A stretch of 64,000 bases of DNA from an uncultured bacterium (GTDB lineage: Bacteria > Planctomycetota > UBA8108 > UBA1146): the NCBI GenBank assembly GCA_913056395.1, contig CAJXMG010000015.1, positions 1 to 64,000 of the forward strand, in the 5' to 3' direction. Position 1 is the first letter of the stretch, and each line of letters opens with the position of its first letter. The notes beneath the pieces are model-generated. The model made no database searches and had not been told where the DNA came from. It saw only the letters and a program-made list of their open reading frames with translations. The position numbers and the translations under genes are program-made. This document shows positions 20,395-29,390 of the stretch, in pieces.

Positions 20395-20823
20395 ATGCCT
20401 TACCCTGAAGAACTGGTTGCGCCCATGCGCAAGGAACTGACCGATCATGGAGTCACCGAACTGAAATCTGCGACTGAGGTAGAGGATTTCCTCGGATCGG
20501 ATGAAACTTCGCTGGTCATCATCAACAGCGTCTGTGGCTGTGCTGCAGGTGGTGCACGACCCGGTGCTGTTCTTTCGATTCAGGCCGAAACGAAACCGGA
20601 TCGCATCGGTACCGTCTTCGCCGGCCAGGATGTGGAAGCGACTCAAAAAGCTCGCGACTTCTGTTCACAGGTCCCCCCCAGCAGCCCATCGATGGCCCTC
20701 TTCAAGGGCTCGGAGCTGGTCTGGTTCCTGCCACGCCACATGATTGAAGGCCGTGACCCGCAGAGCATCGCTTTCGATCTGGTCCAGGCGTACGAAGAGC
20801 ACTGCTCCAGCAAGGCCAACTGA
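20395..20823 (+). CDS. BrxA/BrxB family bacilliredoxin
   Basis: A 142-residue DUF1094 (YphP/YqiW) thioredoxin-like protein with the active-site CGC in NSVCGCAAGGARPG at residues about 43-56 and the conserved PPSSPSMALFKGSELV near 95-110. Bacilliredoxins remove bacillithiol from mixed disulfides; outside Firmicutes they occur in thiol-redox systems of several phyla. The N-terminal YPEELVAPMRKELTDHG is typical. Ribosome-binding site GGAAGG lies seven bases before ATG 20395. A small unknown gene follows in the same frame after the stop. Confidence 0.93.
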   Translation: MPYPEELVAPMRKELTDHGVTELKSATEVEDFLGSDETSLVIINSVCGCAAGGARPGAVLSIQAETKPDRIGTVFAGQDVEATQKARDFCSQVPPSSPSMALFKGSELVWFLPRHMIEGRDPQSIAFDLVQAYEEHCSSKAN

Positions 20824-21233: not shown

Positions 21234-22337
21234 TCAATCTGTCAATGACGGCGGTGGCGGAGATTCTCCGACCAACAGCCTCGTCATGCGACTCATATCG
21301 AGAAGCATCGGAACCGAAGGATCATCACTGTTGAGAATGACTTCCGGGATCTCCAGATTCTTGACCGCTTCCAGTGCGAGCAGGATTCGGCCCCCGGTGG
21401 TATCGAGAGCCTGATTTCGCAAGTCGTCGCGCAGGGCCTTCGACTTTTCGATGGCCAGATCCCCTTCCGCGATCAGGATGTCCCTCTCTGCATCGCCCTC
21501 TGATCGGGTTTTACGATCATAGAGCTGGGCTTCTGACGAGATCGTGGCGATTTCCACCTCGAATGCCGAGCGCTGCTCCTGAATCCTTTTCTCCCAGTCC
21601 CGCTCCTTGGCAAGAACTGCTGCCGCAATCTGGCGCTTCTGGGTCTGAACCTTCTGATCTTCCTCAGCCTGTTTGGTCAAAGCCTCTTCCAGTTTTGATT
21701 CCTGACGCAAAAGCTGTTTGTTCTGAAGTTTGCTTTCGTAGTCGGGAAGGAACTTGACCGCACGGATCAACAGATCTTCCGGCTCGACATGAAAACTCGC
21801 CAGTTCCGATCGAAGAACGGTGAGGGTTTCCGCTGCTTGTACCGATCGCTTATCCGTCAACTGAAGGTCTTCAGAAGTCAACTTCGCAAGTTCAGTCCGC
21901 AAAACATTGAGAACCTGCGAACGGACCCGCTCCACGTAAGAGAGACGCAATCCCTCTTCCACCAACTTGTAACCGGATCCTTCGATGATTCTGTAGGTCA
22001 GTGAAACATCGATGGTCACGTTGTTATTGTCTTTGGTACGAAGCTCGAGGGGCTGCTGCCAATCCTCGATCCCCCGGGAAGTATTGCGGTTGTCTCGCAG
22101 CTTTTCACCGCTGACGAAATGCAGGAAATGGGTCTGCCGGGGCAACAGGTGCCAACGATGATAACTCGGAATGGCAAGAACCAGCCCGGTGCGAAAATCT
22201 TCCTGCACCACTCCCTTGCCAGGTCCGAAAACCACTTGTTTGACACCGATGGAAGCAGGTGGAATTTTCTGGGTGACGACGGTCAGCAGAAACAAACCAA
22301 CAATCAAAATCGACAGAATTACGGAGAGAAACTTCAT
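21234..22337 (-). CDS. SPFH/band-7 membrane protein (second of pair)
   Basis: A 367-residue protein: one N-terminal membrane helix (LSVILSILIVGLFLLTVV), an SPFH/prohibitin domain at about 30-200 (TIDVSLTYRI, RSQVLNVLRTELAKLTSEDL), and a long charged coiled coil at about 205-300 (EEALTKQAEEDQKVQTQKRQ). It ends in a Pro-rich tail. Such proteins form large ring or cage assemblies on the membrane and guard proteases or microdomains, as HflK/HflC do. ATG 22337 overlaps the upstream SPFH stop by four bases, so the two products are probably made together and form a hetero-oligomer. Confidence 0.88.
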   Translation of the reverse strand: MKFLSVILSILIVGLFLLTVVTQKIPPASIGVKQVVFGPGKGVVQEDFRTGLVLAIPSYHRWHLLPRQTHFLHFVSGEKLRDNRNTSRGIEDWQQPLELRTKDNNNVTIDVSLTYRIIEGSGYKLVEEGLRLSYVERVRSQVLNVLRTELAKLTSEDLQLTDKRSVQAAETLTVLRSELASFHVEPEDLLIRAVKFLPDYESKLQNKQLLRQESKLEEALTKQAEEDQKVQTQKRQIAAAVLAKERDWEKRIQEQRSAFEVEIATISSEAQLYDRKTRSEGDAERDILIAEGDLAIEKSKALRDDLRNQALDTTGGRILLALEAVKNLEIPEVILNSDDPSVPMLLDMSRMTRLLVGESPPPPSLTD

Positions 22338-23563
22338 CGACGGTCTCCCTTCAACTCGGGAATCCCCTGAGACCCTGCGGATTGTCCCGCCGGAGGAAGC
22401 AAATGCTCCACTCGAACCGGTGCGGAATCCCTGCGATACGGCACCACACTGAATTTCACACGCTGGAAGAGCCTGGAAAGTTCTTCTCGAACGAGGACTT
22501 CACCCTGACGCTCCAGTGCGGCGACACGGGCCAGCAAACCTTCTGCTTCCTTGCGAGCACTGTTTTCCAGAGCCCTTGCTTCCTGAGTCTTGCGAGCCTC
22601 TTCTGCCTTGCCTGCGTTGATCTGGGTGATCTTGTAGGCGTCTGCAGACTTCTCGATCTGGACCCGATCCTTTTCCGCATTGATCTTGTCTGCCTCGAGT
22701 TTTCCCAAAGCCTGTTCATATTCGGAGGCCTTGGTTCGCTCAGTTTCCGCGAGTTTGCGCTCCAGCTCATTGATCAGCTTGGCCTGCTCGATGCGCAGTC
22801 GCTCCACCTCCTGGTTGGCGTTTTTCCGATCCTCGATGGCATTTTCCACCTTGACGTCAAAACTGGGTTTGGGGGTGATGATCTGCAGAATCTCAATGCC
22901 GTGGTCCCTGAGATATTCATTCAGGCGATTCTTGGATTGATTCGTGGCGGTGGTGTAGTTGCTCGGGTCGGCAATATCCTCGGAAGAATAGCGACCGAAC
23001 TCATCACGAAGGACCGACCTTGCGAAGGCCCTGACCCAGTTACGCTTGAAGGCCTCACCGGGTCCACTGTCCTGCAATACCTTGGCTGCTTCGGAGGGGA
23101 TCAACTGGTACTGAAGTGAGATTACATTGAATTTGAAAGAGGAACCGTCCGAAGCCCTGACCGACAATTCACGGACATGATTGTAATCAATGTTTCTGGC
23201 ACCCGTCATCTGGAACTCATTCGGCGATTTGTCCATGACATACGCCTCGCTGAGCCAGGGCAGGAAGAAGGTCACTCCCGGAGTGGTGACCACCTCTTCT
23301 TCACCGGTCAGATAGTTGACGATCACCGCAACTTCCGTATCGGAGATGTCGACGATTCCCGCTCTACCGGTGAGAACCAAAAAGAGGAAGACCCCCAAAA
23401 TCAGAGCCAGCAAAAATCCTGGCACCGCCATTGGGTGTAACTGGAAGTCGCCGCCTCCTGAATTTCGTTTGCCACCGCCCCCCCCGGATCTTTTGCCAGG
23501 TTTTTCCGGTGGTGGTGGAGGCCAACTGTCCGGGATGTCATTGCCTGCAGGAACTGACGCCAT
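22334..23563 (-). CDS. SPFH/band-7 membrane protein (first of pair)
   Basis: A 409-residue protein. A Gly/Pro/Lys-rich cytoplasmic N-terminus (PPPPPEKPGKRSGGGGGK) precedes one membrane helix (VPGFLLALILGVFLFLVLTG), an SPFH domain (about 75-270, NVISLQYQLIPSEAAKVLQD) and an extended Glu/Lys/Ala coiled coil (about 250-375). The Pro/Gly start and tandem arrangement resemble HflK followed by HflC, but the coiled coil is much longer. ATG 23563 is preceded by GGGGGAAAG; the frame to 23629 adds Cys-rich residues unlikely to be translated. Confidence 0.86.
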   Translation of the reverse strand: MASVPAGNDIPDSWPPPPPEKPGKRSGGGGGKRNSGGGDFQLHPMAVPGFLLALILGVFLFLVLTGRAGIVDISDTEVAVIVNYLTGEEEVVTTPGVTFFLPWLSEAYVMDKSPNEFQMTGARNIDYNHVRELSVRASDGSSFKFNVISLQYQLIPSEAAKVLQDSGPGEAFKRNWVRAFARSVLRDEFGRYSSEDIADPSNYTTATNQSKNRLNEYLRDHGIEILQIITPKPSFDVKVENAIEDRKNANQEVERLRIEQAKLINELERKLAETERTKASEYEQALGKLEADKINAEKDRVQIEKSADAYKITQINAGKAEEARKTQEARALENSARKEAEGLLARVAALERQGEVLVREELSRLFQRVKFSVVPYRRDSAPVRVEHLLPPAGQSAGSQGIPELKGDRR

Positions 23564-23665
23564 CTTTCCCCCTGTCTGACGGGACTTCTGTTCGCAGCAC
23601 ATCATAGAGGTTGGCGAAAAATCCCACAATGAGAACAGAGGGCCACGGAGGGCTCCACAAACCGA

Positions 23666-24601
23666 TTATCCGAGGATTTCCTCTCCCAGCGCACTGGCAA
23701 GGATGGCAACTCCCACTTCTGCGGTTTTGTTGCCGTGGTCAAGCACGGGATTGACCTCTACCAGTTCCAGAGATCCAACCTTTCCAGTCTCGGCGATCAT
23801 TTCCATCGCCAAGTGAGCCTCCCGGTAGGTGAAGCCCCCCTCCAACGCGGTTCCGGTACCCGGTGCAAATCGGGGATCGATGACATCGATGTCGAAACTC
23901 ACATGAAGGTGATCGCAGTCCGCCAGAGCATGAGAGATCGCTTCCTCCAGCACCACCGGCAAGCCCCTGCGATCGACATCTTCCATCGTGTATGCACGAA
24001 TATTGTTTTCGCGGATATTTCGACGTTCCCCCGGATCCAGATCGCGGAGCCCGACCTGCACGATGCGGTGGGGTTCCAACTTGGTTCCGGCATAACCGAC
24101 TTCGGTTAACTCGCGGGGCCCATTCCCAAGAAGACAGGCAAGGGGCATACCGTGGACATTGCCTGTAGGTGAAGTATCCGGAGTGTTCAGGTCGGCATGG
24201 GCATCCAGCCAGAGCACACCGATTTTTGGAATCGAACCGGGGTTTTGACTGTGGTAGTGACTGGCGACACCGCTGATGGTTCCCACAGCAACGGAGTGAT
24301 CCCCTCCCAGCACCAGCGGCAAGCGACCGCTGTCCAGTGACCCCTTCACGCGATCACTCAATTGACCGCATGTCTGGGAAATCGTCTCAAGGTAACGGGC
24401 CTTGGGATCGCCCGGCTTTTCCAGCTCAGGGATGGGAACCGCAATATCCCCGCCGTCGATCACATTCAGCTCAAGTCGCTCCAATGCCTTGGTCAGTCCA
24501 GCGATTCTCAAGGCTGTCGGGCCCATGGCGACCCCTCTTTGCCCTGCACCGTGATCCAGAGGTACGCCGATCAATTCAACAGGCTGGTCCTTCGACTTCA
24601 T
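23666..24601 (-). CDS. rocF: Arginase
   Basis: A 311-residue ureohydrolase that converts arginine to ornithine and urea using two manganese ions. Metal ligands are visible in GGDHSVA (about 99), WLDAHADLNTP (about 130) and SFDIDVIDP (about 234). The N-terminal GVPLDHGAGQRGVAMGPTA and SPTGNVHGMPLACLLG are specific for arginase rather than agmatinase, and the C-terminal ELVEVNPVLDH is canonical. ATG 24601 overlaps the stop of the upstream selenoprotein candidate (ATGA), so translation of arginase may depend on readthrough of the UGA at 25410. That coupling is inference from spacing. Confidence 0.94.
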   Translation of the reverse strand: MKSKDQPVELIGVPLDHGAGQRGVAMGPTALRIAGLTKALERLELNVIDGGDIAVPIPELEKPGDPKARYLETISQTCGQLSDRVKGSLDSGRLPLVLGGDHSVAVGTISGVASHYHSQNPGSIPKIGVLWLDAHADLNTPDTSPTGNVHGMPLACLLGNGPRELTEVGYAGTKLEPHRIVQVGLRDLDPGERRNIRENNIRAYTMEDVDRRGLPVVLEEAISHALADCDHLHVSFDIDVIDPRFAPGTGTALEGGFTYREAHLAMEMIAETGKVGSLELVEVNPVLDHGNKTAEVGVAILASALGEEILG

Positions 24602-25650
24602 GGCTGACTCACTTCCAGTTCTTCTTTCAGGGCTGCGAGCTTGGAACTCATCAGATTGATCCGGGGTTTGAGATCAGCACGGGATCCATAAGCCCTGCGA
24701 TAGGTCGTCAATGCAGATTCAGCCGCAGCGAGATCCTTTGCGGTGATCGCCCCATCAAAAACCAGCCGCCAGTAATCGGAAAAGATGTTGATTCTGGCAT
24801 CATTGAGACGGGTCCCCGCCCGATACAGTTCGAGCATCTCCCGGGAAGTATCCAGATACAACTTTCCGCGCCCGACCTTGTCCTCGGAATCCAGCGCCCT
24901 GACTTTGCGGACATACTCCTGTAAAAGGCGGTTCACCGGCTGGTAGGCATTCCAGCGCTCAAAACGGGCCAATAACTTTTTATCGACTCCTTCGGTTTTG
25001 GCCGCCTGCTCCAGTTCCTTTGCCGTGGATTTGCGCAGATCCATAATCGATTCCAGCAGCAACAGGCTCGCCTTGGCTGCGGCCTGATCTGCGGAACCTT
25101 CTTCACTGTTTTTGACCCAGGATCTCGCTTTGACCAATTCTGAGGCCACTTCCACCGCACCACGTACCCTGTTTTCTGCGTTCGGTCGGAAAGCTCCCGC
25201 CGTGTCATTGCGCAAGATCACCTGACCGTCCGCATCCATCACCACCGTAGTCGGAAAGGATCGCGCTCCGATCTCTCTCAACAGATCCTGATCAGGCTTG
25301 TCCTGAAGTCGAGCACTGATATTGACGTAGGGCACAAAATCCTTGCCGGCCATTTCCTTCCACCAATCGGACTGGAGAGGACCCCTCTCCAAAGCGGTGC
25401 AAGGCGGTCATGGGGCATAGGATCGGGTGAAGTAGGCCACGATGGGCAAATTGTCCCTGCGTGCTCTTTCCACCGCAGAGTCGAGGGAGCGTTCCCATTT
25501 GACCGCCTTGAGAAAGGTGGACTCCTGCTTTTTTTTCCAGCGGCGCTCCAATTCCTCCGGCGATTGGGCTCCCAGATCACTGGAGATCAGGAAGCTTGCC
25601 GGGAGCAGGGCCAGCAGTGCGATCAATATCCGCAGACGTGAACCGGTCAT
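24598..25650 (-). CDS. Secreted thioredoxin-like selenoprotein candidate (UGA at codon 81, U-P-P-C)
   Basis: One frame runs from ATG 25650 to the TGA at 24600, interrupted only by TGA at 25410-25408, giving 350 residues with Sec at 81. Residues 1-29 are a signal peptide (LRILIALLALLPASFLI). Residues about 50-150 are a thioredoxin fold: DNLPIVAYFTRSYAP, then U-PPC-TALERGPL, where U falls exactly on the first Cys of CxxC, and the cis-proline segment ARSFPTTVVMDADGQV. Residues 160-350 are alpha-helical, with no known motif. Coding continues in frame for 269 codons after the UGA and a SECIS-like hairpin follows it. It is probably a periplasmic thiol oxidoreductase. The alternative is a nonsense mutation or base error (TGC to TGA). 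Confidence 0.75.
25371..25410 (-). promoter_or_regulatory. Bacterial SECIS-like hairpin after the in-frame UGA
   Basis: Starting 15-17 nt after the UGA, TGGAGAG (25391-25385) pairs with CTCTCCA (25379-25373) around the apical loop GGGTC (25384-25380); a T-G wobble extends the stem. The loop begins 23 nt after the UGA and starts with G. Published bacterial SECIS patterns place the apical loop 16-37 nt from the UGA with a G among its first two bases. It would be the SelB binding site. Folding was done by eye. Confidence 0.65.
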
Positions 25651-26389: not shown

Positions 26390-28228
26390 TTGTCCCCGAC
26401 CAAAAGCGCAAAGAAAAAGAGCGCGAAGAAGAGCACCAAAAAAACGACAAAAAAGGCAGCCAAAAAAGTCGCCAAAAAAAAGGCCACTAAAAAAGCGGCC
26501 AAAAAACGATCTTCCGGTGGCAAGACCGGATCCCGATCTAAACCGGAACAGGCAGATCTTTTCAGTCAAAGCCCCAAGGGCAAAGCCGCCAAGAGCTCCG
26601 CTCCCCGATCCAAAAAGAAGACCCAAAAATCTCGTGCAACCTCTGGAGATGACTCCGCATCTGCCAACAAGGCTGAACAATTGGCGGCCAAGCAAAAAGA
26701 CATCTCCGTCAGTGAGTTCTTTGCCAAGAATCGCCACCTGCTGGGTTTTGACAGCCCGGCCCGAGCTCTCCTGACCACCGTCAGGGAAGCGGTCGACAAC
26801 TCTCTGGATGCCTGCGAGGAAGCGGAATACCTGCCGACGATTGTCGTTGAAGTTACGGCGGCCTCCGAGGAACAACACACCATTCTCGTAAGGGATAATG
26901 GGCCAGGCATCGTTCCTGCGCAGTTGCCCAAGATTTTTGGTCGACTGCTTTATGGATCCAAGTTCCATGCCCGCAAGCAGACCCGGGGACAACAGGGAAT
27001 CGGGATCAGTGCTGCAGGCATGTACGGAAACCTGACCACTGGCAAACCGATGGTGGTCACCAGCAGAACCTCCAAAAGAAAACCCGCTACCCGGGTCACC
27101 CTTGCCATCGACATGGCCAAAAACCAACCGGTGGTCAAAAAAGAGCAGGAAGTCGACGTCGATTGGGCCCATGGAACCGAAATCCATATCGAGTTGGAAG
27201 GGACCTACAAGAAAGGCAAGCACTCTATCGATGCTTTCCTGGAACAGGTCTCCCTCGCCAACCCCCATGTCGAAATCCAATACAAAAACCCTGTGGACAA
27301 AGAGCCCATCATTTGGGAACGGGTGACGAAGAAACTTCCGGAAGCCCCCATGGAAATCCTGCCTCATCCCCACGGAGTGGAACTGGGCATCCTCATGCAA
27401 ATGATGAAGGACACCTCCTCCAGAACCGTCAGCGGGTTCCTGTGCAGCGAGTTTTGTCGAATGACCCCGAATGTGGTGAAAAAGGTCAGTGAGCAAAGCG
27501 AAGAACTGGGCAAGTACATCGATACCGATCGTCACCCACGCAGGCTGAGCAGCGCAGATGTCAAGATTCTTCACAAGTCCATCGAACAGACCAAGATGAT
27601 GGCGCCGCCAACCAACTGCCTCTCCCCCATCGGAGAAGATTTGATGGCGAAAACCCTCCGGCGCAACTTTGACCCGGAATTGGTCCTGACAGTCACCCGT
27701 CAACCTGCCGTCTATCGCGGCAATCCCTTTCAGGTAGAGGCGGGGATCGCTTATGGCGGAGAACTTCCCGGCGACGAGCTCGCCAGCATTTTCCGCTTCG
27801 CCAATCGGGTTCCCCTGCAATACGAACAGGGTGCATGCGCCATCACCCAATCGATCATTTCGACCCCGTGGAAAAACTACGAGGTCCAACAGGCCCGGGG
27901 GGCACTGCCAACCGGTCCACTGGCGATCCTGGTTCACATCGCGAGTGTGTGGGTTCCATTCACCTCGGAAAGCAAGAAAGCGGTCGCCGGATACGACGAG
28001 ATCCTCAAGGAGATGCGCCTCGCCATCATGGAGGCGGGTCGAAAACTGGCGATCCACCTGCGCAAGAAACGTCGACTCGCGGATGCAGAGCGCAAGAAGG
28101 ATTACATCAAAAAGTACATTCCCCAGATCGGCATCGCCCTGCAGGACATCCTGGAGTTGAGCGATAAACAGAGAACCGGAGCAGAATCCAAACTGGCAGA
28201 TGTTCTCGAAAAAAGCCGGAAGATGTAA
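26390..28228 (+). CDS. top6B: DNA topoisomerase VI subunit B with histone H1-like N-terminal tail
   Basis: A 612-residue GHKL ATPase subunit of the type IIB topoisomerase. The ATPase motifs are [10 protein letters not shown] (N box), LVRDNGPGI (G1), and [16 protein letters not shown] (G2/lid). A central H2TH-like region and the transducer follow, with the conserved QYEQGACAI near 490 and the C-terminal [20 protein letters not shown]. Residues 1-90 are a low-complexity Lys/Ala/Ser tail ([19 protein letters not shown]) like histone H1 or bacterial Hc1, absent from archaeal Top6B (about 530 residues). The start is TTG 26390 with GAGGAGG upstream. Top6A follows after 10 bases. The enzyme would relax or decatenate DNA with ATP. 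Confidence 0.93.
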
Positions 28229-28238
28229 GGGAGACTGA

Positions 28239-29390
28239 ATGACAAAGAAAATCACCCGGGCATACATGGACAAAGTCCGCCGGGAAAATGCCAAAAAAGA
28301 CAAGAAGACCATCTCCAGCATCGAAAATGCTGCAGATGACATCTACAAGAAGATCCAGCGCCGGGGCAAACCCTTGATGCGTTTCCCTGTTCGCAGTCTC
28401 AGTAACGTCTCCTACGACAAGCGCAAGGGTTACCTTGAGATCGGCCGCGCCCGCAAGGAGCGCACGCTGACCGTCAACACCGTCAAGGGGTTCGCACAAA
28501 CACTGCGCATGATGGGTCTTTCCCGAGAACTGGTCATCAATAACGATTTTGCTACCAAGCGAGACGTCTATTACCAATCGAAGAATTGGGAAGAAGCCAA
28601 GTTTGACGACCAAACCGAATCGGACACGGTCATGGATGACATCGAGGCGCTCTTCTCGGTGGACGACGTCAGTCGTGAGCAGTTGCGCTTTGTTCCCGAT
28701 GAGCATGGCGGCGCAGTGGCCGGAGACCTGGTAGTCCTCGACCCGGATCTGGAATCCGGCGAGATCGAACGCATTGACTGCACACGCTTCGGCAGTGGTG
28801 CCTATTCCATCCCCACTTCAGTCGAACATTTGAGCTTTGAAACCGGCGCCAAGTTCATCCTCGCAATCGAAACCGGAGGTGTTTTCCAAAGGCTGCAAAG
28901 TCACAAGTTCTGGAAGACCTCCAATTGCATTCTCGTCAACATGGCTGGAGTCCCCACCCGCTCGACCCGCCGTTTCATTCGCCGACTCAGCGAACAGGCC
29001 AAGATTCCGGTTTACGCCTTCGTCGATTGCGACCCTTACGGGATCTCCAATATCTATCGCACCCTGAAGGTCGGATCCGGTAACGCCGCGCACATCAATC
29101 GCTTCTTCTGCGTTCCCAATGCCACCTATCTGGGAGTCACCCCTCAGGACATCATCGACTACGAACTTCCGACCCACCCCTTGAAGGATGTCGATATCAA
29201 GCGTGCCAAGGACGCCCTCAAAAATGACCCCTTCTTCAAGAGCAAGAAGCAGTGGAAATCGGCGATTGAGCAATTGTTGTCGATGGGAGTCCGTGCGGAA
29301 CAACAGGCTTTGGCGATGTGGGGCCTGAACTACGTCATTGAAGAATATTTGCCCCAAAAACTGAAAAATCCGGGTAAATTCCTCCCCTGA
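28239..29390 (+). CDS. top6A: DNA topoisomerase VI subunit A (Spo11-like)
   Basis: A 383-residue DNA-cleaving subunit. The winged-helix catalytic site is FATKRDVYYQSKNW at about 107-120; the second Tyr is the expected nucleophile by comparison with Spo11. The Toprim metal site is FILAIETGG (Glu) and FVDCDPYGI (DxD). Both halves are intact, so this is a potentially active A2B2 enzyme making 5'-overhang double-strand breaks. The N-terminus is Lys-rich. AAGGGAG lies eight bases before ATG 28239. Top6 is typical of archaea and plants and patchy in bacteria, so the operon is a probable old lateral acquisition; composition does not stand out from neighbours by eye. Confidence 0.95.
   Translation: MTKKITRAYMDKVRRENAKKDKKTISSIENAADDIYKKIQRRGKPLMRFPVRSLSNVSYDKRKGYLEIGRARKERTLTVNTVKGFAQTLRMMGLSRELVINNDFATKRDVYYQSKNWEEAKFDDQTESDTVMDDIEALFSVDDVSREQLRFVPDEHGGAVAGDLVVLDPDLESGEIERIDCTRFGSGAYSIPTSVEHLSFETGAKFILAIETGGVFQRLQSHKFWKTSNCILVNMAGVPTRSTRRFIRRLSEQAKIPVYAFVDCDPYGISNIYRTLKVGSGNAAHINRFFCVPNATYLGVTPQDIIDYELPTHPLKDVDIKRAKDALKNDPFFKSKKQWKSAIEQLLSMGVRAEQQALAMWGLNYVIEEYLPQKLKNPGKFLP

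Follow-up and report, generated by a model that had tools for sequence, protein, structure and literature searches.

A phylum-wide, apparently undescribed family of thioredoxin-fold selenoproteins with a helical C-terminal domain in Planctomycetota

INTRODUCTION

In the 64,000-nucleotide stretch of planctomycete DNA analyzed here (the window), one reverse-strand reading frame contains a single internal TGA codon at the first position of a thioredoxin CxxC-type motif, and its end overlaps the start of an arginase gene. Does this TGA terminate translation, or is it read as selenocysteine (Sec, U) in an intact protein, and what would such a protein do? The original prediction, made from the window alone, held that the frame encodes an unannotated Sec-containing thioredoxin coupled to arginase. 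We examined this prediction by comparing the locus with its own genome (2.77 Mb, 95% complete), with related genomes and with protein family and structure databases.

RESULTS

An internal TGA codon at the thioredoxin redox motif

The features of the locus are as follows.

24598-25650, reverse strand: gene of the Sec-thioredoxin (350 residues and a stop codon), with the internal TGA decoded as Sec; the frame is open under TGA = U and homologues match its full length
25567-25650, reverse strand: signal-peptide-like N-terminus, residues 1-28; a hydrophobic stretch with a putative cleavage site
25201-25518, reverse strand: thioredoxin-fold domain, residues about 45-150; Thioredoxin_7 E = 1e-5, profile match to DsbH (2ju5) E = 5e-8
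25408-25410, reverse strand: TGA codon for Sec81; TGA in 128 of 139 aligned rows
25399-25410, reverse strand: U-P-P-C redox motif, residues 81-84; U81 and C84 conserved
25374-25390, reverse strand: bacterial SECIS-type hairpin GGAGAGG-GGU-CCUCUCC; two-sided changes, and a hairpin of matching geometry in this genome's dsbD
25252-25254, reverse strand: cis-proline P133 of the thioredoxin fold, 99% conserved
24610-25188, reverse strand: C-terminal all-helical domain, residues about 155-347; family-wide, nine helices in an AF2 model (pLDDT 82.6)
24598-24601, reverse strand: ATGA, in which the stop codon of the Sec-thioredoxin gene overlaps the start codon of arginase; read in the sequence, and present also in L019-L022 and L025-L027
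23666-24601, reverse strand: arginase gene, the downstream neighbour; TIGR01229 305.9 bits (cut-off 227.6)

The context of residue 81 reads YFTRSYAPUPPC, and the coordinates and frame of the single TGA were exactly as predicted. Under translation table 11 the frame broke into open reading frames of 80 and 264 amino acids, the second starting at TTG, which reproduced the split expected of gene callers. The same TGA was present in five separately deposited metagenome-assembled (MAG) contigs, two of them only 70% identical; these independent assemblies all read TGA at 25410-25408, where TGC or TGT would have spoken for a sequencing error, and such an error was accordingly ruled out. In each genome found within the genus and the taxonomic family, the top match contained one TGA. 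Purifying selection was comparable on both sides of the codon, with pN/pS values of 0.27 upstream and 0.27 downstream in the comparison with L052, and dN/dS values of about 0.1 upstream and 0.04-0.05 downstream in comparisons with 97% identical relatives. Thus, the coding quality continues past the TGA, as does the thioredoxin fold, whose predicted cis-proline is P133.

These observations bear directly on the reading in which translation truly stops at the TGA, or the codon arose by nonsense mutation or sequencing error, and the locus is a pseudogene or two small genes of 80 and 264 amino acids. The two table 11 frames, with a TTG start available for the second, favour this reading. However, the second piece would have neither the signal nor the N-terminal half of the thioredoxin fold, selection acts on both sides of the TGA, and the codon recurs in separate assemblies and, as described below, across the phylum; we therefore regard a true stop as extremely improbable.

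Distribution of the family and the Sec/Cys column

Matches were found in 31 genomes among 59 relatives, and nearly all strong matches contained exactly one TGA. We then built a family profile from 44 members and searched it against 392 Planctomycetota genomes. At E ≤ 1e-15, 84 of the 392 genomes matched, three of them marginally, which left 81 clear family-carrying genomes, many with several paralogues. This survey covered Planctomycetota, and a scan of named genomes that used a single protein did not extend beyond close relatives. The Sec reading of the original prediction was supported, but the protein is not the isolated oddity that was first described: it belongs to a phylum-wide family with several copies in many genomes. 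Viral or plasmid carriage of the family was also searched for, with zero matches.

Among the 139 aligned rows that reach residue 81, 128 contained U (TGA), 7 contained C and 4 were degenerate (W, Y, S and L). Both U and Cys thus occur at this column, with Cys rare. Three of the C rows were intact natural-Cys family members (L070, HCAPC; L160, PCPPC; L178, VCGFC), one had Cys at the column and lacked the second Cys (L069, ACPVS), and three (L045, L079 and L086) were ordinary thioredoxins. On a midpoint-rooted tree, which does not itself prove the direction of change, the non-U rows appeared as scattered tips, a pattern that fits repeated loss of Sec. The conserved residues included W52, Y73, F74, R76, S77, U81, C84, E88, P133 and G142.

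The same genome encodes another Sec-thioredoxin paralogue with about 37% identity (contig 13, 48598-49569, reverse strand; L055/L090), about 15 kb from selB. Tandem copies were observed in L119, L120, L133, L157, L155 and L072; there are three in a row in L133, and the adjacent copy in L155 lacks the Sec/Cys pair (DYAAC).

A SECIS-type hairpin downstream of the UGA

In bacteria, SelB binds an mRNA hairpin and brings Sec-tRNA(Sec) to the UGA, at which Sec is then inserted. In the window gene, the UGA is followed by 17 nt and then by GGAGAGG-GGU-CCUCUCC, with the loop starting 25 nt after the UGA; the hairpin thus lies just 3′ of the UGA and a G opens its apical loop, as expected of a bacterial SECIS element. 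Two stem registers were found among the family members, and the covariation values were 0.343 (41 sequences) and 0.524 (30 sequences), one for each register, compared with at most 0.144 and 0.175 in slid-partner controls; 0 of 500 shuffles reached the observed values. Because registers were assigned by each sequence's own pairing, and a few poor fits were omitted, the share of paired positions is inflated; the hairpin is better supported by the two-sided changes, which preserve the pairs in both registers.

Synonymous recoding that kept the protein weakened the hairpin, with a mean z of −1.64 over 128 genes, compared with −0.1 to −0.6 at control positions. Two natural-Cys members displayed no hairpin signal (L070, z = −0.1; L160, z = +1.1), and the third retained it (L178, z = −1.9). 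The hairpin of the window gene taken singly was borderline (P = 0.047 under the synonymous null; z = −0.96 in another test, where the control L160, misplaced relative to its active site, was left out). Similar hairpins, at nearly equal distances from the UGA, were found in two Sec genes of the same genome that are unrelated to the Sec-thioredoxin. In dsbD the element reads GGAAAAU-GGU-AUUUUCC and its loop is spaced from the UGA exactly as in the window gene; in selD the loop is GGUCG and lies two nt more distant.

The Sec insertion machinery

A genome search for selA, selB, selC (tRNA-Sec) and selD, suggested with the original prediction, found all four. The tRNA-Sec scored 67.1 bits and has the anticodon TCA (UCA in RNA); selA and selD adjoin it on contig 5, selB lies on contig 13, and selD itself contains an active-site Sec codon (ASCAGUAAK). 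SelB was found in 77 of the 81 clear family-carrying genomes, compared with 157 of the 311 others (Fisher's exact test, P = 1.5e-15, uncorrected for kinship). A SelB match was not found in four family genomes (G015, G167, G228 and G312), the first of which has SelA, and a SelA match was not found in three (G007, G012 and G048), each of which has SelB. These missing matches are likely gaps in incomplete genomes.

Could the UGA instead specify an amino acid other than Sec, such as Trp or Gly after a code change, or through near-cognate read-through? The open frame agrees with such decoding, and we found nothing further in its favour. On the other side, TGA serves as an ordinary stop more often than any other codon in the window, terminating 31 of 49 long open reading frames, and a genome-wide reassignment is therefore ruled out. 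Moreover, tRNA-Sec, SelA, SelB and SelD are all encoded, a Sec-type hairpin follows the UGA, and the intact non-U members contain Cys. Decoding as an amino acid other than Sec is thus scarcely credible, and the support for Sec at this position is strong.

Protein architecture and the nearest known systems

The nearest relatives of the thioredoxin domain were Thioredoxin_7 and DsbH (PF13899, NF043050 and PDB 2ju5), the latter an exported type of disulfide reductase. The window protein scored 26.0 bits against PF13899 (gathering cut-off 27; the best relative reached E = 9.3e-11) and 24.4 bits against the DsbH model NF043050, below its curated cut-off of 190; among the 44 members, 36 matched PF13899 and 34 matched NF043050. 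Unlike DsbH, the window protein contains Sec instead of Cys and an extra helical domain of about 190 residues. Its best NCBIfam match was VPGUxxT type 2 (NF041383, E = 1.7e-7), likewise a thioredoxin-like selenoprotein with a C-terminal extension; however, the score of 31.2 bits was far below the cut-off of 275, the match was restricted to the first 125 profile positions, and the motif is APUPPC (U-P-P-C) rather than VPGUxxT. None of the 44 members matched GOS_C (NF045500), HUIPC (NF047660), SaoT (NF040730) or DsbG-like (NF041057) models at E ≤ 0.01. The scan otherwise returned weak matches to VPGUxxT, TsoB and Trx7/PDZ models, together with generic thioredoxin models. No model in NCBIfam (June 2026) or Pfam reached its cut-off for the window protein, and a PDB search with the protein returned distant thioredoxins only.

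A hydrophobic signal-like stretch was present at the corresponding place in 113 of 124 members in a simple hydropathy test, and a lipobox in almost none; export of the Sec-thioredoxin is therefore likely.

The predicted helical C-terminal extension of about 190 residues proved to be common to the whole family, as full-length profile matches indicated. Folded alone, this domain was modeled with the nine helices listed above; it matched no Pfam family and no PDB fold at E ≤ 0.6, and weak annexin matches of its profile look like generic helical similarity. A full-length structure model made from six close sequences gave CnoX/YbbN (PDB 3qdn) as the top Foldseek match (TM-score 0.24–0.26), but this model was poor (pLDDT 58), so that we do not build on this match; the helical domain alone had no significant match. 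CnoX/YbbN shares with the window protein a thioredoxin domain followed by helices; it was not matched in the profile search of the PDB, and the window protein, unlike CnoX/YbbN, looks exported.

A second selenoprotein, DsbD, and the likely function

The genome encodes a single DsbD_TM protein, itself a Sec protein, with the gamma thioredoxin motif NFTGHTUQNC.

Contig 16 of the same genome (L189, 3597-700), reverse strand: Sec-DsbD, TGA at residue 835 of the translated frame

Direct reading of 16 loci, this copy among them, showed the TGA of dsbD, and one-TGA matches occurred across Planctomycetota. A Sec-containing thiol:disulfide interchange protein is listed in PMC13188914 and PMC2398784. 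Like the window protein, Sec-containing DsbD has a UxxC thioredoxin domain and belongs to an exported redox relay; it differs in being a membrane protein with an eight-helix core, which the window protein lacks. Among the relatives, DsbD was matched in 22 of 24 family-carrying genomes compared with 9 of 36 others (P = 2.5e-7, a comparison confounded by kinship), and within each of these groups one match lacked the Sec position or TGA.

The whole of the evidence is best explained by an exported thioredoxin-fold selenoprotein that would act as a disulfide reductase with DsbD as donor, a reading that we consider highly probable. SelB on the hairpin would bring Sec-tRNA(Sec) to the UGA of the Sec-thioredoxin, and the N-terminal signal would carry the protein over the inner membrane. 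There, Sec81 may attack substrate disulfides and Cys84 would resolve the selenenylsulfide; electrons would be supplied from the cytoplasm by DsbD, here a UxxC selenoprotein. The helical C-terminal domain might bind a substrate or partner. A selenol-to-selenol relay from DsbD to the Sec-thioredoxin is possible, because the single DsbD of this genome is also a Sec protein and DsbD co-occurs with the family.

The main competing function is that of a thiol peroxidase or another detoxifying envelope enzyme. Some thioredoxin-fold selenoproteins are peroxidases, and the neighbours of the gene are not conserved outside close kin, both of which leave room for such a role. Against it, UxxC together with the cis-proline, and DsbH as the nearest solved relative, point to thiol-disulfide exchange, as does the co-occurrence with DsbD, subject to the kinship noted above. 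We regard a mainly peroxidatic or detoxifying role as a serious but rather doubtful alternative. Most likely, the protein is an exported selenothiol disulfide reductase that receives electrons from DsbD, with function, substrate, electron donor and location all inferred from these comparisons.

The arginase overlap and the gene neighbourhood

The predicted 4-base overlap was confirmed as ATGA, and the downstream frame encodes a true arginase. Where the orthologue loci of the taxonomic family extend that far, arginase was the adjacent gene, as it was in L066, a single locus of the same order; the loci listed above share the exact overlap, and L030 and L031 had a short gap. Across the family loci, no neighbours were found to recur outside close relatives. 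The coupling originally proposed is therefore real as an overlap; however, outside this taxonomic family it was seen in a single relative, from the same order, and it does not define the function.

That the Sec-thioredoxin directly serves arginase, for instance as a redox regulator, with the two genes as operon partners, gains from the retention of the overlap in several genera and from the adjacent arginase in L066. However, the thioredoxin looks exported and arginase has no reason to be, and in most family members arginase is not a neighbour, nor does any other neighbour recur. We consider such a partnership quite improbable, and a role of arginase as functional partner of the whole family was not supported. 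As the overlap is lineage-specific, a functional link between the two proteins is unproven; the overlap may indicate that the two genes are translationally coupled in this lineage, not that their products share a pathway.

Other genes were observed nearby. Two genes after arginase (21234-23629, reverse strand) look SPFH/HflK-HflC-like by eye and are conserved in close relatives; neither matched an NCBIfam model at E ≤ 1e-8. A BrxA/BrxB-family bacilliredoxin (TIGR04191), a family of cytosolic low-molecular-weight-thiol enzymes, is encoded at 20395-20823 (forward strand). DNA topoisomerase VI is unusual in bacteria; its subunit B is encoded at 26390-28228 (forward strand; NF003218, 651 bits), followed by a frame resembling subunit A at 28239-29390 (forward strand).

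DISCUSSION

Our results indicate a real and apparently undescribed selenoprotein family, which is distinguished by its fused helical domain, rare Cys forms and phylum-wide spread. Marine UxxC thioredoxin-like selenoproteins have been described as the GOS Trx-like 1 and Trx-like 3 clusters of the Global Ocean Sampling study (PMC2398784), and earlier, unlabelled sightings of the family among the GOS Trx-like clusters are possible. A new family within the known kind of thioredoxin-fold UxxC selenoproteins is a reasonable claim. A 2026 inventory of prokaryotic selenoproteins (PMC13188914) does not mention Planctomycetota; of the UxxC thioredoxin-like families that it lists, those represented in NCBIfam gave no match to any of the 44 members at E ≤ 0.01 beyond the weak ones to VPGUxxT, TsoB and Trx7/PDZ. 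A paper on planctomycete selenoproteins includes a supplementary candidate list (S9; PMC4807772).

Roughly one in five of the Planctomycetota genomes sampled carries the family, often with multiple copies, and any annotation that reads UGA only as a stop splits its genes in two. In the most far-reaching combination, phylum-wide, Sec-dominated selenothioredoxins with their own helical domain would be reduced selenol-to-selenol by Sec-DsbD, and in this lineage the translation of arginase would be tied through the ATGA to Sec insertion; taken as a whole, we consider this unlikely. If it were true, arginase output would be selenium-dependent: should the coupling depend on termination followed by re-initiation, arginase would fall whenever Sec insertion failed. 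More broadly, the Sec-thioredoxin and Sec-DsbD together suggest a selenium-run redox system in the envelope of many Planctomycetota.
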